This document shows positions 35,750 through 46,035 of a stretch of 46,035 nt of DNA, piece by piece (the stretch's first letter is position 1; each line of letters starts with the position of its first letter). Below the pieces are notes generated by a model, which was not told the origin of the DNA, did no database searches, and was given only the letters and a program-made list of their open reading frames with translations. A program made the position numbers and the translations under genes. Source of the stretch: Rhodoferax sp. (lineage in GTDB: Bacteria > Pseudomonadota > Gammaproteobacteria > Burkholderiales > Burkholderiaceae_C); contig JAEUOX010000340.1 in the NCBI GenBank assembly GCA_016790475.1, positions 1 to 46,035 on the forward strand. Reading direction: 5' to 3'.

Positions 35750-38700
35750 CTATTGCAGGTGCGGCCCGATCAGCCCGGCCAGCTCGAACATCGTGACCTG
35801 CGGCTTGCCGAAGACCTTCTGCAGCTTGGCATCGGCGTTGATCGTGCGCTTGTCGCGCGCGTCCTGCAGGCCCTGCGCCTTGATGTAGTCCCAGAGCTTC
35901 TTGACGACCTCGGTGCGGGCGGTCAGGCCGTCCCCGACGATGGCGGCCAGCGCCGGGCTCGGCGTAAGCGTGCCGGCCTTGGGCGCCTTGGCCGCCCGGG
36001 ATGGCGCCGCCGCCTTCGCAGCGGTCACTTTCCTGGCCGGGGCCTTCTTGGCGGTCGGCTTCTTCGCCGCCACCTTGGCTGCGGCGGCAGCCGGCGCCGC
36101 CTTCTTGGCTGCCGGCGCCGCCGGGCGGGCGGGGGCCGCGGTCTTGCCCGCGGCCGTCTTGCGCGGCGGGAACTTGGACGGCGCGAACTCGAAGCCGACC
36201 TTGCCGGCCTCGGCGTCCCAGGCCAGCATGGCCTTGAAGTTGCGCCGGGTGCGCATCGACACGAACTTGTCCAGCATGTCGGTCTTGCCGGTGGCCAGCA
36301 GCTTGCCGAACTGCTCCCGCGTGACCGGCTGCTGCAGGATCACCTGGCCGGACTTGAAGTCGCAGCTCGGGGTGACCTGCTCCAGCGTCGGCACCGACCG
36401 GGCGCAGACATAGTTCTTGCCGTGCTCGTACACCGCGCCGCCGCACTTCGGGCACGCACCGAGCGATTCCTGGCCGCCAAAGTCGATCAGCTCGCCGGAT
36501 TCCTCGGCCGCCTTGTCGTCGCCGAAGTCGAACTCCAGCTTGTAGTTCTTCGCGTCCTCGTCGTACTTGATGACCATCTCGGCCGTGAAGGGCCAGCCCG
36601 CCTTGGAGCGGAAGCCGTCCAGCGGCCCGATCTTGCGGTCGCGCAGGAACTGCTCGACCTCGGCCACCTCGAAGGTGCGCCCGGCCGGCGTCTTGCCGAA
36701 CGAGAAGCCGCAGCCGTCCTCCGTGCCGGACTTGCCGGTGCAGGCGTAGCGCCGGTAGTTCTCCTTGATGACGCCGCCGCAGTTCGGGCAGGGCGTCTGC
36801 AGCGTCGCGTAGTCGCCCGGGATCGTGTCGCGGTCGTACTCCTTGGCTTTCTTGACCATGCGCTCGGTCATCGCGGCGATCTCGGCCATGAAGCTGTCGC
36901 GGCTCAGCTTGCCGTGCTCCATCTGCGCGAGCTTGTATTCCCATTCGCCGGTCAGCTCCGCGCGGGAGAGCTCCTCGACGCCCAGGCCGCGCAGCAGCGT
37001 CATCAGCTGGAAGGCCTTGGCCGTGGGGATCAGCTCGCGGCCCTCGCGCAGCATGTACTTCTCGTTGATCAGGCCTTCGATGATGCTGGAGCGGGTGGCC
37101 GGTGTGCCCAGCCCCTTCTCGTGCATTGCGGCGCGCAGGTCCTCGTCCTCGATCAGCTTGCCGGCGCCCTCCATCGCGCCGAGCAGCGTGGCCTCGGTGT
37201 AGCGCGCGGGCGGGCGGGTCTGCAGCCCGCGGGTCTCGACCGCGGCGACGCCGACCTTCTCGCCCGGCTTCACCGGCACCAGCATCGCCGGGTTCTTCTC
37301 GTCGCCGTCACGCGTTTCGTCCTGCGCCTCCTTGCCGTAGATGGCCAGCCAGCCCGGCTTCACAAGCACCTTGCCCTCGGTCTTGAAGCTGTGGCCGGCC
37401 GCGACCGAGATGCGGGTCGTGACCTGGTATTCGGCACTCGGGTAGAACACCGCCATGAAGCGCCGCACAACCAGGTCATAGACCTTCTGCTCCGCCTCGC
37501 TCAGGCCCTGGGCCGGCTGCAATGTAGGAATGATCGCGAAGTGGTCGCTTACCTTGGCGTTGTCGAAGATACGCTTGCTGGGCTTGATGTAGTTGCCCTT
37601 CAGTGCCGTCGCCGCGAAGGGGGCCAGATGCTTCATGCCGCTGTCGGCCAGCATCTCGAAGGTCTTCTTGACGACCGGCAGGTAGTCCTCGGGCAGCGCG
37701 CGCGAATCGGTCCGCGGGTAGGTCAGCGCCTTGTGGCGCTCGTACAGGCTTTGCGCGATGGCCAGCGTGGTCTTCGCGCTGAAGCCGAACTTGCCGTTGG
37801 CCTCGCGCTGCAACGAGGTCAGGTCGAACAGCAGCGGGCTGGCCTGCGTCGTGGGCTTGCTTTCCTCGGTGACGGTGGCGGTCTTGCCGCGCACCGCGTC
37901 GGCGATCTTCTGAGCGTCGGCCAGCGTCCAGAGGCGGTCGGCGCGCAGCTCCGCATCCGGCTCCTCGGTGTTGCCGGCGGCCTGGTTGGCCGCCGCCTTC
38001 TTCCAGGTCGGGTCGAACCACTTGCCCGGGTACTCGCCGGCGGCGGCCGCGAAGCTGGCATGGATCTCCCAGTAGTTGCGGCTGACGAACTTGCGGATCT
38101 TCTCCTCGCGCTCGACAACGACCGACAGCGTGGGCGTCTGCACCCGGCCCACGGTGGTCAGGAAGAAGCCGCCGTCGCGCGAGTTGAAAGCCGTCATCGC
38201 CCGCGTGCCGTTGATGCCGACCAGCCAGTCCGCCTCAGAGCGGCAGCGGGCGGCGTCGGCCAGCGGCAGCATCTGCCGATCGGTGCGCAGCGTCTCGAAG
38301 CCCTCGCGGATCGCCTGGGGCGTCATCGACTGCAGCCACAGGCGCTGCACCGGATGCTTGACCTTGCTGTATTGCTGGATCAGCCGGAAGATCAGCTCGC
38401 CCTCACGCCCGGCGTCGCAGGCGTTGATGAAGGCGCCGACATCCTTGCGCTTGGCCAGCCGCACGATCGCGTTGAGCCGGGTCTTGGTCTTGTCGAGCGG
38501 CTTGAGTTCGAAATGGGGCGGGATCACCGGCAGGTGCGCAAAGCTCCACTTGCCGCGCTTGACGTCGAACTCCTCAGGGGCCTGGATCTCGACCAGGTGA
38601 CCGACCGCACTGGTGACAACGTACTTCTCGTTCTCGAAATGCTCTTCCATCTTGTCGAACTTGCCCGCCACCGGCGTGAGCGCACGCACGATGTCCTGCG

Positions 38701-38755
38701 CGACCGACGGCTTCTCGGCGATCACCAGGGTCTTGCTTGAATCTGCTTTTTTCAT
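35750..38755 (-). CDS. topB: DNA topoisomerase III with H1-like linker and C-terminal SWIB domain
   Basis: 1001 residues, ATG at 38755. The N-terminal Toprim domain (KTLVIAEKPSVAQDIV; CDAGREGELIFR) and the type IA core follow, with the catalytic tyrosine near residue 345 in TYPRTDSR and LLFDLTSLQREAN. Two cysteine-rich zinc-finger-like regions come next (CPNCGGVIKENY; CPKCGGAVYEHG). Residues ~863-929 are almost entirely Ala, Lys, Pro and Arg (AAKKAAP, KKPTAKKAPARK). Residues 930-1001 form a SWIB/MDM2 domain (RTEVVKKLWDYIKAQGLQD; INADAKLQKVFG). It relaxes negative supercoils and decatenates DNA; the tail should add DNA or protein contacts. E. coli TopB has 653 residues. A SET methyltransferase gene is transcribed divergently. 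No strong Shine-Dalgarno precedes the ATG. Confidence 0.92.
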   Translation of the reverse strand: MKKADSSKTLVIAEKPSVAQDIVRALTPVAGKFDKMEEHFENEKYVVTSAVGHLVEIQAPEEFDVKRGKWSFAHLPVIPPHFELKPLDKTKTRLNAIVRLAKRKDVGAFINACDAGREGELIFRLIQQYSKVKHPVQRLWLQSMTPQAIREGFETLRTDRQMLPLADAARCRSEADWLVGINGTRAMTAFNSRDGGFFLTTVGRVQTPTLSVVVEREEKIRKFVSRNYWEIHASFAAAAGEYPGKWFDPTWKKAAANQAAGNTEEPDAELRADRLWTLADAQKIADAVRGKTATVTEESKPTTQASPLLFDLTSLQREANGKFGFSAKTTLAIAQSLYERHKALTYPRTDSRALPEDYLPVVKKTFEMLADSGMKHLAPFAATALKGNYIKPSKRIFDNAKVSDHFAIIPTLQPAQGLSEAEQKVYDLVVRRFMAVFYPSAEYQVTTRISVAAGHSFKTEGKVLVKPGWLAIYGKEAQDETRDGDEKNPAMLVPVKPGEKVGVAAVETRGLQTRPPARYTEATLLGAMEGAGKLIEDEDLRAAMHEKGLGTPATRSSIIEGLINEKYMLREGRELIPTAKAFQLMTLLRGLGVEELSRAELTGEWEYKLAQMEHGKLSRDSFMAEIAAMTERMVKKAKEYDRDTIPGDYATLQTPCPNCGGVIKENYRRYACTGKSGTEDGCGFSFGKTPAGRTFEVAEVEQFLRDRKIGPLDGFRSKAGWPFTAEMVIKYDEDAKNYKLEFDFGDDKAAEESGELIDFGGQESLGACPKCGGAVYEHGKNYVCARSVPTLEQVTPSCDFKSGQVILQQPVTREQFGKLLATGKTDMLDKFVSMRTRRNFKAMLAWDAEAGKVGFEFAPSKFPPRKTAAGKTAAPARPAAPAAKKAAPAAAAAKVAAKKPTAKKAPARKVTAAKAAAPSRAAKAPKAGTLTPSPALAAIVGDGLTARTEVVKKLWDYIKAQGLQDARDKRTINADAKLQKVFGKPQVTMFELAGLIGPHLQ

Positions 38756-38766
38756 CTGACTACAAT
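38737..38766 (+). promoter_or_regulatory. Promoter of the SET-domain gene, inside the start of topB
   Basis: TTGAAT (38737-38742) and TACAAT (38761-38766, 5 of 6) with 18 bases between them. The -35 lies within the first codons of the leftward topB gene, so transcription of the two genes must interfere or be co-ordinated. The predicted start at about 38773 leaves an 80-base leader before the GTG. Confidence 0.55.
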
Positions 38767-38775
38767 TCCGCGTCT

Positions 38776-38825
38776 CGCGTGCGCACAGGCGCACACACCC
38801 GGGCGCGCACCCACGCGCGCACCCA
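38776..38825. repeat. Alternating GC/CA low-complexity tract in the SET gene leader
   Basis: About 50 bases of GTGCGCAC- and GCGCGCAC-type units. The last part is a direct repeat of CGCGCACCCA (38804-38813 and 38816-38825, period 12). Long runs of alternating purine and pyrimidine are prone to left-handed DNA under negative supercoiling. It lies between the topoisomerase start and the SET start. Confidence 0.6.
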
Positions 38826-38853
38826 TGAGTTCACGTTACCAAATTTTTCTACC

Positions 38854-39333
38854 GTGTCCAGAAAACCCCCGACCTCCGATGCGCGCCGCATCCAGACCCG
38901 CCGCTCCGGTGTCCACGGCAAGGGGGTGTTTGCACTGTGCGACATCCCGGAGGGCGAGACCATCATTGAATATGTGGGCGCCATCATCAGCTGGAAGGAG
39001 GCGCAGCGTCGCCATCCGCACGATCCGGCCGATCCGAACCACACCTTCTATTTCCATATCGACGAGAACCGTGTCATCGACGCGCTGTACGGCGGCAACT
39101 CCTCGCGCTGGATCAACCACTCCTGCGATCCGAACTGCGAGGCCGACGAACAGGACGGCCGGGTGTTCATCAAGGCGCTGCGCAACATCCGCGCCGGCGA
39201 GGAACTCAACTACGACTACGGCCTGATCATCGACGAGCGCTACACGCCCAAGCTCAAGGCCGAGTACCCCTGCTGGTGCGGCGCCAAGAGCTGCCGCGGC
39301 ACCCTGCTGGCGCCCAAGCGGCGTCACCGCTGA
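38854..39333 (+). CDS. SET-domain protein lysine methyltransferase
   Basis: 159 residues from the GTG at 38854; upstream in-frame codons give only low-complexity repeat-derived residues. A complete minimal SET domain is present: GKGVFALCDIPEGETIIEYVG (residues 22-42, cofactor-binding), RWINHSCDPNCEA (residues 85-97, with N88-H89-S90-C91 of the pseudoknot) and ELNYDYG with the catalytic tyrosines (Y120/Y122). A post-SET zinc motif Cys-x-Cys-x4-Cys is formed by C140, C142 and C147 (CWCGAKSCRG) with C91. It should transfer methyl groups from S-adenosylmethionine to protein lysines. No Shine-Dalgarno is evident. Divergent from topB, whose lysine-rich tail is a plausible substrate (inference). Confidence 0.9.
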   Translation: MSRKPPTSDARRIQTRRSGVHGKGVFALCDIPEGETIIEYVGAIISWKEAQRRHPHDPADPNHTFYFHIDENRVIDALYGGNSSRWINHSCDPNCEADEQDGRVFIKALRNIRAGEELNYDYGLIIDERYTPKLKAEYPCWCGAKSCRGTLLAPKRRHR

Positions 39334-39361: not shown

Positions 39362-40177
39362 ATGACCGGGCCCGCACCGGGCGACTGGCCGCTGGAGGCC
39401 CTGCAGGCCCAGGCGCAGCCCCTGTTCCCGGGCCTGCGCGTCGAGGCGGTCGCGCAGATCGACTCCACCAACACCGAGCTGATGCGCCGGGCCCGTGCCG
39501 GCGCCGTGCCCCCGGCGACCCTGCTGGTTGCCGAGACGCAGACGGCCGGCCGCGGGCGCCTGGGCCGCAGCTGGGTCACCGGCAGCGCCGGGCCGGGCCG
39601 CCTGCCGGCCCTGACCTTCTCGCTGGGGGTGGTGCTGGCTCCGCAGGACTGGTCCGGCCTGTCGCTGGCGGTCGGGGTGGCGGTGGCGGGCGCCTTGCAC
39701 CCGGCGCTGCAGATCAAGTGGCCGAACGACCTCTGGCTGCACGAGCGCAAGCTGGCCGGCATCCTGATCGAGACCGCGCAGGTCGGCGGGCAGCGCCTGG
39801 CGGTGATCGGCATCGGCATCAATCTGGAGCCGCCGCCGGCCGACCTGCTGGCCGGCCTGTCGGTGCCCCCCACCGGCCTGCGGGCCGTCTGCCCCGATGA
39901 CAGCGCGCCGCAGGTGCTGCTGCGCGTGCTGCCGGCGCTGCTGGCGGCGTTGCGGCAGTTCGAGGCCGGGGGCCTGGTGCCCTTCCTGGAGGCCTACCGC
40001 GCGCGCGACCTGCTGCAGGGGCGCGCCGTGCTGCTGAGCGACGGCACGCAGGGCACGGCCCACGGCATCGACGCCGGCGGCGGCCTGCTGGTGCATACTC
40101 CGGCCGGCATGCGCACGATCACCAGTTCCGAAGTCAGCGTGCGGCCGGTGGCACCGGCCGCGGGCCGCGGCGCCTGA
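39362..40177 (+). CDS. birA: Biotin--[acetyl-CoA-carboxylase] ligase, no DNA-binding domain
   Basis: 271 residues, ATG at 39362. Class I biotin protein ligase: the biotinyl-AMP loop GRGRLGRSW (residues ~61-70), the catalytic K119 in IKWPNDLWLHERKLAGIL, and the C-terminal SH3-like domain (GRAVLLSDGTQGTAHGIDAG). It joins biotin to the carboxylase carrier protein in the cytoplasm. The winged helix that lets E. coli BirA repress biotin genes is absent, as is usual in this bacterial group. Followed 5 bases later by a small membrane protein gene. Confidence 0.92.
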   Translation: MTGPAPGDWPLEALQAQAQPLFPGLRVEAVAQIDSTNTELMRRARAGAVPPATLLVAETQTAGRGRLGRSWVTGSAGPGRLPALTFSLGVVLAPQDWSGLSLAVGVAVAGALHPALQIKWPNDLWLHERKLAGILIETAQVGGQRLAVIGIGINLEPPPADLLAGLSVPPTGLRAVCPDDSAPQVLLRVLPALLAALRQFEAGGLVPFLEAYRARDLLQGRAVLLSDGTQGTAHGIDAGGGLLVHTPAGMRTITSSEVSVRPVAPAAGRGA

Positions 40178-40602: not shown

Positions 40603-41664
40603 ATGGCCTCCCGCCGTCCCCGCTCCGCGGCTGCCGACCCGCAGCGCACGATCAACCTCGCGCTGCAGGGCGGCGGCGCCCACGGCGCATTCACCTGGGG
40701 CGTGCTGGACCAGCTGCTCGAGGATGGCCGCATCGGCGTCGACGGCATCTCCGGCACCAGCGCCGGCTCGATGAACGCGGTCGTGCTGGCGCACGGTCTG
40801 CTGGACGGCCGCGATGCCGCGCGGCAGGCCCTGCAGGACTTCTGGCGCGCCGTGTCCGACGCCGGGCAGCGCCTGAACCCCTGGCGCTGGTTCGGTCTGC
40901 CGGACCCGATGGCGGGCGACGGCCCCTGGGCCAGCCTGGCCGGGCAGTGGTTCAGCGCGGTGACGCACGCGTTCTCGCCCTACCAGTTCAACCCGCGGCA
41001 GATCAACCCGCTGCGCGAGGTGCTGCTGCAGCGGGTCGACTTCGAGCGGCTGCGCCGGGAGTCGCCGATCGGGCTGTTCCTGGCGGCCACGCATGTGCGC
41101 TCCGGCAAGGCGAAAGTGTTCGGCATCGACGAGGCGATCACGGTCGACATGGTGCTGGCCTCGGCCTGCCTGCCGCAGCTGTTTCCGGCGGTCGAGGTGG
41201 ACGGCGAGTTCTACTGGGACGGCGGCTTCATGGGCAACCCGGTGCTGTACCCGCTGTTCTACGAGACCCGTTCGCGCGACGTGCTGATCGTGCACATCAA
41301 CCCGATCGCCCGGGACGGCCCGCCGCCCCGCACCGCCGAGGCGATCCTGGACCGCGTCAACGAGATCAGCTTCAATTCCTCGCTGGTCAAGGAACTGCGT
41401 GCCGTGGCCTTCGTGCAGAAGCTGATGGATGCCGGCTGGATCCGCCCGGAACACCAGCACAAGCTGCGCTATGTGCTGATGCACTCGCTGCGCGCCGACA
41501 AGGTGCTGTGCGACCTGCCGGTCAACAGCAAGATGCGCAGCGACTGGGCCTTCCTGACGGACCTGCGCGACCGCGGCCGCGCGGCGGCGGCCGAGTGGCT
41601 GGCGCAGAACTACCGCTACCTGGGGCAGCGGTCCTCGGTGGATCTGCGGCAGGAGTTCCTGTAA
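40603..41664 (+). CDS. Patatin-like phospholipase
   Basis: 353 residues, ATG at 40603. Patatin fold: oxyanion glycine loop LQGGGAHGAF (residues 21-30), nucleophile S53 in GTSAG, and dyad aspartate D206 in WDGGFMGNP. There is no signal peptide and no autotransporter domain, so it is probably cytoplasmic or peripheral to the membrane. It hydrolyses acyl ester bonds of phospholipids or related lipids. It lies 9 bases after the membrane protein gene and converges on the exonuclease fusion gene 16 bases away. Confidence 0.92.
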   Translation: MASRRPRSAAADPQRTINLALQGGGAHGAFTWGVLDQLLEDGRIGVDGISGTSAGSMNAVVLAHGLLDGRDAARQALQDFWRAVSDAGQRLNPWRWFGLPDPMAGDGPWASLAGQWFSAVTHAFSPYQFNPRQINPLREVLLQRVDFERLRRESPIGLFLAATHVRSGKAKVFGIDEAITVDMVLASACLPQLFPAVEVDGEFYWDGGFMGNPVLYPLFYETRSRDVLIVHINPIARDGPPPRTAEAILDRVNEISFNSSLVKELRAVAFVQKLMDAGWIRPEHQHKLRYVLMHSLRADKVLCDLPVNSKMRSDWAFLTDLRDRGRAAAAEWLAQNYRYLGQRSSVDLRQEFL

Positions 41665-41680: not shown

Positions 41681-43846
41681 TCAGTACCCTACGCGCGCCA
41701 GGTAGCTCTCGCGCGACGCCGCGCGGGCCTGCCCCAGCGTGTGGATCCCCTTGTCGGCCAGCAGCGGCAGCAGCTTCAGGAACACCTGCGCCGTCACCGT
41801 CGCGTCGCCCAGCGCGGTATGGCGGCCTTGCACCGCGATGCCCAGGCGCTGCGCGATCGCCTCCAGCGCATGGGATTCCTGGTGCGGATGCACGACGGTG
41901 GACAGCAGCAGCGTGTCGAGCACCGGCTGGTCGAAGCGCAGGCCGGTGCGCTCCTCCTTGAGTTGCAGGAAGCGCATGTCGAAGGCCGCGTTGTGCGCCA
42001 CCAGCACCGTGTCCTGTGCGAAGGCGTGGAAGGCCGGCAGCACCTGGTCGATCGTCGGCTGGCCGGCGACCATGGCCGGCTGGATGCCGTGGATCGGAAT
42101 CGACGCCGGCGAGATCGGGCGCTGCGGGTCCACCAGCTGCTCGAAGCCCTCTTGCGGCAGCAGGCGGCCGTTGACGATGCGGGTTGCGCCGATCTGGATG
42201 ATCTCGTCGCCGGCCGAGGGCTCCAGCCCGGTGGTCTCGGTGTCGAACACGGTGTAGGCCAGGCCGGCGAGCGGGCGCGACTCCAGGTCGCTGCCGGCCG
42301 CGCCGGTCTGGAACAGGTCGAAGTCGTAGTACTCCGGCCGCTCTGCCCCTGCGGAGAGTGCCGGTGCCGCATCGCCATCCGTCGTGTCCTGTCCGCTGGC
42401 CAGCGGTAGCAGGAAGCGGAAGAAGGCCTCGTGCCGGGTGCGCTCGCGCTCGAACCAGAATGCGCCGCCATGGCGGTCCACGATGTCGCGCACGCTCAGC
42501 GGCGTGGCATCGTTGCCGATGCGCATCGGGTCGAGCTCCCAGCTCATCACCGTCTCGGTGCTCATGACCTGTCCGCGCCAGACCAGATCCAGATGCGCAC
42601 GCGGACCGGCACCCGACAGCCGCAGCCCGGTCTGCGTGATGCCGAATTCGTCGGCCAGCCGCGCGGCCAGGTAGGCCAGGGCCTGCATCAGCGAGAAGCT
42701 GTCCACGCGCAGCCACAGCGCGTCGTCCACCGGCGCGGCGTCCACCTGCAGACGGGCCGCGGATTCGATGCGCCGGGCGATCGCGGCCAGCAGGTCCGCA
42801 CCGCGCATGTCCTCCATCGGCCAGCGCGTCTTCAGGCCGGTCGCGGCGGTCTGCGCAAAGTGCTGCACCCGCTCGGTCAGTGCGGCAGTTTCCTCGCGCA
42901 CCACGCCCAGGAAGCGCGCATGCATCGCCGGCTCCAGGTCCGGGTAGCCCAGCATGTCGACGGCCGCCTGCAGATTGGCCAGCGCGCCGCGGCTGCCCTC
43001 GGTCATCGCGTGCAGCAACTGGTCGCGCAGGGCCTCCTGCTCGAATTCGCGCGTGACGTTGTCCAGCATCAGCACGAAGCCGCCCAGCACCGGCCCGGGC
43101 TGGTCCAGTACCGCGGCCATCTGCACGCGCAGCAGCTGTCCGCCGCGGGTCGTGGTGACGAACTGCGCCGACGGCTGCGCCACGCCCCGTGCCAGCCGCT
43201 GGCGGATCGTCTCCAGCGCGTGGTCCACCAGCGGGCGCTCGAACACGGTGTAGATCGAGCGGCCCAGGCCGATCAGGCCGCTGGCGCCTTCGGCCAGCCC
43301 CGGTGTGCCGGACAGCGTGCGGAACTGCAGCCGCGCGCGCTGGTTGTACAGCAGCACCTGGCCGTCCAGGTTGCAGACCACGACGCTCTGCGTGAGCTCG
43401 GCCATCAGGGCCGCGAGGCGGCGGCGCTCCTGGTCGACCTGCCGGCTGGCCGACAGCACCTGCTGCTGCATGTCGTCCTGCAACGCCGTGCGCTGTGCGA
43501 CCAGCGCTGCGATCGCCTGTGCCAGGCTGCGCACGGCGCTGCCGCCGCCATCCGGCAGTGCGGCGTCGGTCCGCTCGGCCAGCTGCACCCGGGTGGCCTC
43601 GTCCAGCCGCGCGACCGCCGCCACATGGTCGCGGAACAGGCGCTGCGCCAGCATCGCCAGCAGCACGCTGACGACCATCCAGGCCATCAGCACCAGGGCC
43701 AGTCGGGACGCCAGCACCTCGGACAGCAGATCGCGCTCGGCAGGCGCCAGCGTCGCCCACACCATGCCGGCGGTCAGCGCGACCCAGGCGCCCAGCAGAA
43801 GCGCCGGCGCCGCGGCCGCCAGCAGGGCCCTGCGCTGCAGGTTCAC
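41681..43846 (-). CDS. Membrane sensor/degenerate kinase fused to DnaQ-type 3'-5' exonuclease
   Basis: 721 residues from a GTG at 43846 (GGAGG 7 bases upstream), overlapping the response regulator stop by 4 bases. Order: two membrane helices (residues ~8-65), a coiled region, a PAS-like domain (TQSVVVCNLDGQVLLYNQRARLQ, residues ~150-270), a helical kinase-like segment with no HExxTP-type phosphoacceptor (LLHAMTEGSRGALANL), and a weak ATPase-like part ending HEAFFRFLLPL. A complete DEDDh exonuclease follows from ~528: D535/E537 (VFDTETTGLEP), D623 (AHNAAFD), H676 and D681 (HTALGD). The nuclease residues are intact while the kinase residues look lost. Output is probably nuclease activity controlled by a membrane signal; this is inferred. 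Confidence 0.85.
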   Translation of the reverse strand: MNLQRRALLAAAAPALLLGAWVALTAGMVWATLAPAERDLLSEVLASRLALVLMAWMVVSVLLAMLAQRLFRDHVAAVARLDEATRVQLAERTDAALPDGGGSAVRSLAQAIAALVAQRTALQDDMQQQVLSASRQVDQERRRLAALMAELTQSVVVCNLDGQVLLYNQRARLQFRTLSGTPGLAEGASGLIGLGRSIYTVFERPLVDHALETIRQRLARGVAQPSAQFVTTTRGGQLLRVQMAAVLDQPGPVLGGFVLMLDNVTREFEQEALRDQLLHAMTEGSRGALANLQAAVDMLGYPDLEPAMHARFLGVVREETAALTERVQHFAQTAATGLKTRWPMEDMRGADLLAAIARRIESAARLQVDAAPVDDALWLRVDSFSLMQALAYLAARLADEFGITQTGLRLSGAGPRAHLDLVWRGQVMSTETVMSWELDPMRIGNDATPLSVRDIVDRHGGAFWFERERTRHEAFFRFLLPLASGQDTTDGDAAPALSAGAERPEYYDFDLFQTGAAGSDLESRPLAGLAYTVFDTETTGLEPSAGDEIIQIGATRIVNGRLLPQEGFEQLVDPQRPISPASIPIHGIQPAMVAGQPTIDQVLPAFHAFAQDTVLVAHNAAFDMRFLQLKEERTGLRFDQPVLDTLLLSTVVHPHQESHALEAIAQRLGIAVQGRHTALGDATVTAQVFLKLLPLLADKGIHTLGQARAASRESYLARVGY

Positions 43847-44217
43847 GGCCGTTCCTCCAGCAGCGACCGCACCCGCGCCACCAGGTCGCGTGTCGAAAAG
43901 GGCTTGGTGACGTAGGCGTTGGCGCCCAGCGCCAGGCCCTTGGCAACATCGGTGTCCCGCCCCTTCGCGGTCAGCATCAGGATGCGCACGCCCTGCAGTC
44001 GGGCCTCGGCGCGCACCTCCTGGCAGACCTCCAGCCCGGTCTTGCGCGGCATCATCACGTCCAGCAGCACCAGGTCCGGCGGGTCGGCCCGGATCGCGTC
44101 CAGCGCCTCCTGGCCGTCGCGCGCGACGCGTACCGTGAAGCCTTCGCGCTGCAACAGGTACTCCAGCGAGATCAGGATGTTGGGCTCGTCGTCGGCGATC
44201 AGGATCGTGGCGGGCAT
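43843..44217 (-). CDS. Receiver-only (CheY-like) response regulator
   Basis: 124 residues, ATG at 44217. Single receiver domain: acidic pocket D9-D10-E11 (IADDEPN), phosphoacceptor D53 (LVLLDVMMP), threonine in LMLTAKG and lysine in YVTKPF. There is no DNA-binding output domain, so it must signal through a protein partner. It sits between a histidine kinase gene and the sensor-exonuclease gene and overlaps the latter, making that fusion the obvious candidate partner. Confidence 0.93.
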   Translation of the reverse strand: MPATILIADDEPNILISLEYLLQREGFTVRVARDGQEALDAIRADPPDLVLLDVMMPRKTGLEVCQEVRAEARLQGVRILMLTAKGRDTDVAKGLALGANAYVTKPFSTRDLVARVRSLLEERP

Positions 44218-44243
44218 GGTGCGGGTGTCTCCAGGGAAAGAGG

Positions 44244-46035
44244 TCAAGCGGTCTGCGGCAGCGGCAGTTCGAACACGAAGCGCGCGCCGCCGTCCGGGGG
44301 CGACTCCAGCCACAGCCGGCCGCCGAAATGCACGACGATCTGGCGGCTGATCGGCAGGCCCAGGCCGGTGCCCTGCGGCCGGTGGGCGGCATCACCGCCC
44401 TGGCGGAACTTCTCGAAGATCAGGCTACGCTGGGTCGGCGGAACACCGGGCCCGTTGTCCTGCACCGCGACGCGCACCACGCCCGGCAGCGCCTGCAGCG
44501 TCACGTCGACCCGGCCCTCCTGCGGCGGAAGGAACTTGGCGGCATTGGAGAGCAGGTTGAGCAGGACCTGCGTCAGCCGGTCCGGGTCGGCCAGCAGCAC
44601 GACGGGCTGCTCCGGCACGGCCAGCGTGATGCGGCCGCCGCGCTCGCGGACCATCTCGCCGGTGGTCTGCACCGCCTGTGCCAGCAGGGCTGCCAGGTCG
44701 ACCGGGCTGCTGTGCCACTCGCCGTGGCCGGATTCGATCTTGGCCATGTCCAGCACCTGGTTCACCAGGCGGCTCAGGCGCTCGGTCTCGCTGACGATGA
44801 TGCCCAGGAACTGCTGGCGCTGCGGGCCGGGCATGTCCGGGTCGTCGGCCATCAGCTCGGCCAGCGCCCGGATCGAGGTCAGCGGCGTGCGCAGCTCGTG
44901 CGTCACCGAGGACATGAAGTCGTCCTTCAGGCGGTCGAGCTCCTGCAGGCGCTCGTTGGCGGCGCGCAGCTCGGCGGTCGCGGCCTCGAGCGCGCGCGAC
45001 TTCTCCTCGAGCTTGTGCGAGTAGGCGCGGACCTGCGAGGCCTCGTCGAGGATGTCCATGACCTCGCCGAGCCCGAGCGGCTCCGCCTGCACCACGGTCG
45101 ACACCATCACCCGCGCCGAGGCGCTGCCGATGGCGCCGGCGAGAAGGGTCTCGGCGAAGTGGACCAGCTCGGGATCGGCCTTGAGCTCGGAGACCCGCTG
45201 CAGGCCATGCGAGCGCGCGTAGGCGCCGAAGGCCTCCTCGGTGCGGCGCTGGCCGAGGAAGCGCGCCACCAGCGGCACCAGCTCGCCGGCCTCGGCGCCG
45301 GTGCGCCAGAAGCTGGCCGGCGGCGCGTCGCCACGCCGGAACACATCGACGAAGAGCGCGCCCTGGGTGGCCTCCGGTCCGGTCGGCACGCGCAGCATCG
45401 ACACCGCGACGTAGCAGCCGATGTTGGCGAGCAGGCTCCAGAACAGCGCGTGGCTGATGTTGTCCAGGCCGGTGAGCCCGAAGAGCTGCTCGGGCCTGAG
45501 CCAGCCTAGGCCGAGCACGCCGTGCTCGAGGAAGCCCGGATCGAGCCAGCCCGACTTGGCGAACGACGGCAGCAGCAGCGTGTAGACCCACACCGCGAAG
45601 CCCGCGAGCAGGCCGGCGAGCGCGCCCTCGCGGGTGCCGCCACGCCAATACATGCCGCCGATCACCACCGGGGCGAACTGCGCCACCGCGGCGAAGCTGA
45701 TGAGGCCGATGCTGACCAGCGCGTAGGCCTCGCCGGCGAGGCGGAAGTAGAGATAGCCGAGCAGCAGCAGCACCACGATCGCGCCGCGGCGGATGCCGAG
45801 CAGGAGCCCGGTGAGGTCGCGCTCGCGCGCGAGGTCGAGCCGCCGGCTGCGCAACAGCATCGGCATCACGAGGTCGTTGCACACCATCGTGGACAGCGCG
45901 ATCGCCTCCACGATCACCATGCCGGTGGCTGCGGACAGGCCGCCGATGAACACGAGCAAGGCGAGCGCATTCTGCCCATGTGCGAGCGGCAGGGTCAGCA
46001 CGAAGGTGTCCGGGTCCACCGTGCCGCTGCCAAAA
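44244..46035 (-). CDS. Sodium:solute symporter-histidine kinase fusion (CbrA-like), N-terminus outside window
   Basis: About 597 residues visible; the frame stays open to the window edge, so the start lies beyond it. The first ~230 residues are membrane helices of a solute:sodium symporter (FIGGLSAATGMVIVEAIALS; FAAVAQFAPVVIGGMYWRGG). A linker and coiled coil (ELRAANERLQELDRLKDDFM) lead to a standard kinase: H-box SSVTHELRTPLTS, N-box LLNLLSNAAKF, G1 VQDNGPGVP and G2 GTGLGLPIS. The overall layout is that of CbrA, a carbon/nitrogen-use sensor. Kinase residues are intact. It should phosphorylate the receiver encoded 26 bases downstream. Confidence 0.92.
   Translation of the reverse strand, partial: FGSGTVDPDTFVLTLPLAHGQNALALLVFIGGLSAATGMVIVEAIALSTMVCNDLVMPMLLRSRRLDLARERDLTGLLLGIRRGAIVVLLLLGYLYFRLAGEAYALVSIGLISFAAVAQFAPVVIGGMYWRGGTREGALAGLLAGFAVWVYTLLLPSFAKSGWLDPGFLEHGVLGLGWLRPEQLFGLTGLDNISHALFWSLLANIGCYVAVSMLRVPTGPEATQGALFVDVFRRGDAPPASFWRTGAEAGELVPLVARFLGQRRTEEAFGAYARSHGLQRVSELKADPELVHFAETLLAGAIGSASARVMVSTVVQAEPLGLGEVMDILDEASQVRAYSHKLEEKSRALEAATAELRAANERLQELDRLKDDFMSSVTHELRTPLTSIRALAELMADDPDMPGPQRQQFLGIIVSETERLSRLVNQVLDMAKIESGHGEWHSSPVDLAALLAQAVQTTGEMVRERGGRITLAVPEQPVVLLADPDRLTQVLLNLLSNAAKFLPPQEGRVDVTLQALPGVVRVAVQDNGPGVPPTQRSLIFEKFRQGGDAAHRPQGTGLGLPISRQIVVHFGGRLWLESPPDGGARFVFELPLPQTA

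Follow-up and report, generated by a model that had tools for sequence, protein, structure and literature searches.

We analysed a 46,035-nucleotide stretch of Rhodoferax sp. DNA (the window), in which a SET-domain gene and topB lie back to back and a biotin ligase gene follows SET. The features of the locus are listed below, with the strand where one applies.

35750–38755, minus: topB, DNA topoisomerase III with a Lys/Ala/Pro linker and a C-terminal SWIB domain (PRK14724, PF01131, PF13342, PF02201)
35756–35965, minus: SWIB domain of TopB (PF02201, 86–90.7 bits; 90.7 in the whole-genome search)
35969–36178, minus: TopB linker with SKFPPRKTAAGK and APARKVTAAK islands (ORF residues 873–942)
38737–38766, plus: predicted SET promoter, TTGAAT-18-TACAAT (one sigma-70-like match)
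38756–38853: divergent intergenic region common to topB and SET, 98 bp (from the gene starts)
38776–38822: alternating purine-pyrimidine (CG/CA) tract, predicted to be Z-DNA-prone (longest unbroken run here 12 bp)
38830–38848: conserved TTCA..TACCAAATTTTT element just 5' of the SET start (in 66/78 loci)
38854–39333, plus: SET-domain lysine methyltransferase gene (SET and post-SET, 159 aa; GTG start; PF00856)
39362–40177, plus: birA-type biotin ligase, the next gene 3' of SET (PF03099, TIGR00121)

An earlier note on this DNA described an intact SET plus post-SET protein, encoded back to back with a topoisomerase that has a lysine-rich tail, and both parts of this description held. TopB, on the opposite strand and with its start set at ATG 38755, passed the PRK14724 model (1937.4 bits; equivalog cut-off 1088), and its tail is the Lys/Ala/Pro linker listed above. 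The SET protein covered the whole of the PF00856 profile (93.2 bits; cut-off 22.4) and a Pfam search found no second domain in it. The key motif residues are invariant in 40 aligned SET sequences with 77–90% identity to the window's protein: H20, G21 and G23 (HGxG); N87, H88 and C90 (NHxC); E115, E116, L117, Y119, D120 and Y121 (EExLxYDY-type); and C139, C141 and C146 (CxCx4C). We take these to be the SAM-binding motif, the pseudoknot, the motif with the catalytic Tyr and the post-SET zinc motif, respectively. An AlphaFold2 model from the 40-row family alignment was too poor for use (mean pLDDT 60.6).

The open reading frame that the earlier note assigned to SET began at TTG 38737, within topB, but that start is purely mechanical. 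SET very probably starts at GTG 38854, because relatives retain a GTG (ATG in some lineages) at the matching site and because there is an in-frame stop between the topB start and SET in 26 of 77 loci (from the best 80 of 568 relatives). With this start, topB and SET would therefore not overlap. The SET protein queries used below began at 38857 (38824 for the search that gave the 568 relatives) rather than at the GTG.

Conservation of the topB–SET pair

Whether the two genes stay adjacent in related genomes had been posed as a check on the pairing, and the adjacency proved to be nearly constant. In the locus set, i.e. the best 80 of the 568 SET relatives (titled Rhodoferax, Ramlibacter, Curvibacter, Polaromonas, Comamonadaceae or Burkholderiaceae bacteria, and unnamed beta- or other proteobacteria), topB was divergent beside SET in 77 loci and birA was next in 77; all six misses were contig edges. 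We also searched 37 whole genomes of the family (our own and 23 others, plus 13 more). SET was present in 37/37, with birA beside it in 37/37, and a divergent, adjoining topB was found in 35 of the 36 testable genomes; the locus in G005 stops at a contig edge and falls outside the 36. In the sole exception (G023) a stretch of 100 N immediately precedes SET, so that its lack of an adjacent topB may be a scaffold gap. In one genome (G008) topB lies about 0.6 kb from SET. Our own assembly has a single SET match, the one at the topB locus; elsewhere in the family a genome may have as many as three. Second copies in two family members (L216, L217) are beside a GlmS-like gene (SIS and GATase), not topB.

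One explanation of the pair is that the neighbours are enzyme and substrate, with SET specifically methylating the TopB linker and so coupling methylation to topology. Besides the constancy of the divergent pair, the linker itself gives some encouragement to this idea. PRKT islands are retained in family TopB linkers that are otherwise variable, and RK[ST] occurred in 31 of 34 parsed linkers at 1.47 per linker (0.10 when shuffled), a count for which 35 of 112 sources were parsed and linkers were cut at 120 aa, many reaching into SWIB. Moreover, among the matches listed, open frames of >900 aa with SWIB were found only in the family that has SET beside topB.

Several results argue against such specificity. 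Since birA is as constant a neighbour as topB, adjacency by itself means little and proves no module. Within the locus set, the TopB C-terminus carried SWIB in 62/62 cases, and in further family TopBs SWIB was present in 17/22 and absent in five (G011, G013, G017, G019, G269). All five SWIB-less TopBs adjoin SET, and the SET proteins of these genomes branch deep in the family (the branching is partly weakly supported); the topB–SET adjacency is thus most simply older than the TopB–SWIB fusion. Beyond the family, TopB tails are rich in lysine whether SET is present or absent, and RK[STQV] in these tails was not linked to SET (13/41 with SET, 5/22 without; p = 0.56). That comparison, drawn from 80 genomes of which three had no topB match, leaves out eight visibly misparsed rows (G247, G274, G300, G082, G248, G134, G119, G389); no tail could be parsed in four genomes (G345, G177, G290, G144), and two were matched but left out (G076, G235). 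In the raw rows the motif counts were 13/42 and 5/29 (p = 0.27), and the lysine count, for which there are raw rows only, was 14 with SET and 10 without (p = 0.04). Given the equal adjacency of birA, the probable age of the adjacency and a tail motif unlinked to SET, methylation specific to TopB is not favoured over methylation of SWIB, H1-like or HU proteins. We consider a dedicated TopB enzyme unlikely; at least two other candidate substrates stand beside the linker.

The shared intergenic region

The SET promoter had been placed inside the first topB codons, which is half right for the prediction made here. The only sigma-70-like match has its −35 (TTGAAT, 38737–38742) within topB, but its −10 (TACAAT, 38761–38766), 18 bp further on, lies outside. 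Of 78 loci, our own among them, 77 retain TACAAT. We found no conserved −35 at a matching distance in these loci, the best −35 matches being scattered and mostly 3 or 4 of 6.

The gap is also unusually rich in alternating purine-pyrimidine sequence. Across 77 loci, 30% of gap bases lie in alternating runs of at least 8, compared with 12.9% after dinucleotide shuffling and 3.0% in segments of equal length from the remainder of each locus, which are mostly coding. Only 15 of 3366 such segments matched the alternation value of the gap, and 71 of the 77 gaps exceeded every segment. A further 22 family gaps, deep-branching members included, all had alternating runs (15–39 bp), and 20 of them had TACAAT. 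In G009 and G010, the complete genomes with fully listed tract matches among 12 searched, the gap tract is the longest perfect alternating tract of the genome (32 and 28 bp, followed by 22 bp). Between close pairs of gaps, the ratio of transitions to transversions was 2.2:1 within the tract and 0.7:1 outside, whilst divergence was 15.5% within and 12.3% outside (1189 non-independent pairs of 95 gaps, with the tract called from either member). Alternation is thus kept while the sequence drifts, as would be expected if Z-DNA propensity matters, and CpG mutation bias could be part of the cause of the transition excess. An RNA hairpin in place of Z-DNA is not favoured because the fold z-scores were inconsistent across five stretches (−2.5, −1.9, −0.4, −0.9 and −1.6).

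A predicted Z-DNA-prone tract in the topB–SET gap across the family is new here. Within the family SET would be expressed from the divergent region that it shares with topB, and through the tract the pair could respond to negative supercoiling.

SET in other families

A SET relative (E <= 1e-6) was found in 101 of 399 genomes of the order (own included), of which 83 (own excluded) reached 128 bits. The SET tree mostly tracks family lines: its 93 rows in 18 label groups require 18 changes, with a minimum of 17. A phage or plasmid origin was considered and rejected. The SET protein had no match in the phage collection, and the 50 plasmid records that matched it, mostly Paraburkholderia (29) and Caballeronia (12), were all <60% identical.

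The family that hosts SET is mostly free-living. The protein could nonetheless be secreted as an effector and methylate eukaryotic histones, the role reported for NUE, RomA/LegAS4 and BtSET. It belongs to the same SET superfamily and matches the AnkI/LegAS4 profile NF043024, albeit weakly (42.2 bits, below the equivalog cut-off of 550), and a Burkholderia SET protein is called an effector in the cited part of PMC3980110. We find this highly improbable: the gene is in every family genome searched and is inherited mainly along family lines, and the protein has housekeeping genes as neighbours and a single Pfam domain.

We examined 80 SET neighbourhoods, 77 of which lay outside f1 or were second copies. 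In one small-genome genus (f32/g59) SET directly follows gyrB in the order dnaA-dnaN-gyrB (8 loci). In f6 it directly follows gyrB in two of three loci and is then followed by a convergent topB; the third locus starts at a contig edge and has topB too. In f20 topB is one gene from SET in 3 loci, and in one f39 locus (L193) SET lies between dnaE and a nuclease plus UvrD helicase pair that resembles AddAB. Some of the proteins behind these DNA-metabolism neighbours were chosen for annotation because they were already suspected, at one locus per case, and Pfam confirmed the adjacent gyrB at one locus each in g59 and f6. In L202 and L209 (both f6) gyrB, SET and convergent topB are consecutive, with dprA after topB in L202.

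A gyrB or topB gene beside SET in several families might look like independent linkage to topoisomerases. We downgraded these cases to shared regional synteny, because in 19 of the 23 genomes that have both on one contig the distance between SET and topB is at most 35 kb. The 23 come from a topB search of 45 SET genomes, 43 of which matched; two of the remaining distances are 88 and 134 kb and two exceed 1.8 Mb (three distances assume a circular record). Outside the family, then, only loose regional SET–topB synteny remains, and it looks like an old regional block.

These data can also be read neutrally. The pair would be part of an inherited ancestral block with no functional tie, and SET would modify an unrelated protein, e.g. 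a ribosomal protein or translation factor. The constancy of birA and the loose proximity of SET and topB elsewhere agree with this, as does the metabolic character of 11 of the 20 annotated neighbour clusters (e.g. ilvD, acs, a TPP enzyme). It leaves unexplained the conserved tract as well as the family-level co-distribution with SWIB, the fusions of SET to lysine-rich tails and the proximity to HU genes in f57 described below, and we think it rather unlikely.

H1-like tails as candidate substrates of SET

Across the order, SWIB was present in 143 of 399 genomes: in 65 of 83 with SET and 77 of 315 others (odds ratio 11, with genome-level p-values that ignore phylogeny). With families as the unit (50 family labels assumed), 13 of 14 SET families and 8 of 36 others had SWIB (p = 6e-6); when distant SETs were counted the figures were 17/18 and 4/32. 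SWIB as a universal partner of SET was rejected, as the association fails outside the order: SWIB was found there in 0/9 genomes with strong SET orthologs, 4/20 with weaker ones and 2/51 without a SET match.

Our own genome has a stand-alone SWIB protein (L234; contig C310, 192–1046, plus; PF02201) with a long AAPAKK-repeat tail, so that the TopB linker is not the only K/A/P sequence attached to SWIB in this host. Of 19 stand-alone SWIB proteins read by eye, our own included, 15 had a clear K/A/P tail and four a short one; three of the four read from SET-less genomes had a K/A/P tail. In SET genomes without SWIB, HC2-like matches (E <= 1e-5) were found in 16/18. By family, however, the link of HC2 to SET is weak (13/14 vs 21/36, p = 0.02), and HC2 matches are of low complexity, 43 of 144 genomes having none above cut-off. 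Our own genome also encodes an H1-like protein with a visible K/A/P repeat (L235; contig C85, 876–1112, minus), which is cut by the contig end and scored 23.5 bits for HC2, below the cut-off of 40. A SWIB or HC2 match was also present in 137 of 315 SET-less genomes, and H1-like tails are common without SET.

In some lineages the tail is on SET itself. Lysine-rich tails of 62–82 aa are fused to SET in 4/5 f13 loci, and with one f47 locus these N-terminal tails span 54–82 aa; tails in f20, f39 and f4 are weaker or shorter. A lenient rule picked out 10 distinct loci among 219 matched, duplicates included. Outside the order, in f57, an H1-tailed HU-family gene lies 1.4–5.5 kb from SET in 6/6 loci (five by rule and a sixth by eye, four of them from one genus), and PF00216 was confirmed in 3/3 of these genes tested. 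In one f57 locus (L285), the divergent neighbour of SET is an Rrf2 regulator, with sufB next.

The earlier note had linked SET and TopB in a possible bacterial chromatin module. Our data suggest a broader version of this idea, supported by the SWIB co-distribution, the SET–tail fusions and the H1-tailed HU genes, in which TopB is not the particular target. SET is a real, conserved enzyme and probably endogenous, and its links to H1-like tails are good, if circumstantial. The reading that we prefer, and to which we give an even chance, is that SET is an endogenous, mainly vertically inherited methyltransferase that acts on H1-like Lys/Ala/Pro tails of the bacterium's own nucleoid and DNA-topology proteins. 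Here the candidate substrates would be the stand-alone SWIB protein L234, the H1-like protein L235 and the TopB–SWIB linker. The methylation itself, its substrates and any control by supercoiling are what we infer from the genes and their distribution.

Known systems offer partial precedents. The earlier note took it as known that the chlamydial SET protein NUE methylates histone-like proteins, and this is contradicted by the cited part of PMC2904774: there NUE methylated H2B, H3, H4 and itself, whereas Hc1 stayed unmethylated at every concentration tried. Among precedents for an endogenous H1-like substrate, the best is cpnSET of Chlamydia pneumoniae, which by description (Murata 2007, as cited in the portion of PMC3980110 used here) binds Hc1/Hc2 and methylates Hc1; Hc1 methylation was not reproduced for its C. 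trachomatis homologue NUE in that part of PMC2904774. The same portion of PMC3980110 describes Go1-SET of Methanosarcina mazei, a prokaryotic SET protein that methylates its own chromosomal protein in vitro, but this enzyme is archaeal and its substrate is MC1-alpha rather than an H1-like tail. A chromatin-modifying complex of SET, SWIB and TopA–SWIB has been proposed for Chlamydiae (PMC6426960, in the part cited). That system, as described there, and ours both have SET, stand-alone SWIB and a type IA topoisomerase fused to SWIB; H1-like proteins may be a further common feature, our own candidate being L235 with its HC2 score under the cut-off. Since SWIB is fused to topoisomerase III here and to topoisomerase I in Chlamydiae, our set resembles the chlamydial one but is not a member of it by that feature. 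Here, moreover, SET and topB are transcribed away from each other across a common, tract-bearing gap.

The SET domain of KMT2A/MLL1 is part of a multi-domain eukaryotic H3K4 methyltransferase. Such KMT2A/MLL1 SET domains are the best solved relatives of our protein (E 1e-26) and the closest solved SET plus post-SET sequence (PDB 7u5v), albeit eukaryotic. Bnr1 of Burkholderia cenocepacia, a proposed DNA mimic, pulls down the H1-like HctB, and a Bnr1 mutant has altered supercoiling (both from the cited part of PMC9060813). Among the matches listed from the open-licence literature, no title was on the topB–SET pair, and no paper in that literature contained both 'topoisomerase III' and 'SWIB'.

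The most far-reaching reading is a chromatin-like circuit, in which the Z-DNA-prone tract of the shared promoter region would act as a supercoiling sensor that balances TopB–SWIB and SET, and SET would methylate the RK[ST] sites in the TopB tail and related lysines of SWIB and so tune the DNA binding of both. We regard the full circuit as speculative and distinctly improbable; if true, bacterial nucleoid proteins would carry a lysine-methylation code in the style of histone tails, and this code would be coupled to DNA topology. Bacterial SET enzymes have mostly been discussed as weapons against host chromatin. For the one described here, distribution, fusion and neighbourhood all provide links to H1-like tails on the cell's own DNA-binding proteins, and with candidate substrates and sites named, the question of whether bacterial SET enzymes modify bacterial chromatin can be put to a direct test in harmless organisms.

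Two other genes in the window, both 3' of birA, are recorded here. A 904-aa ORF (41681–44395, minus) has a C-terminal DnaQ-type exonuclease domain and a middle region that by eye appears membrane-anchored and sensor-like. A patatin-like phospholipase gene (40603–41664, plus) matched a CBASS lipase model with 33.7 bits, far under the cut-off of 200.
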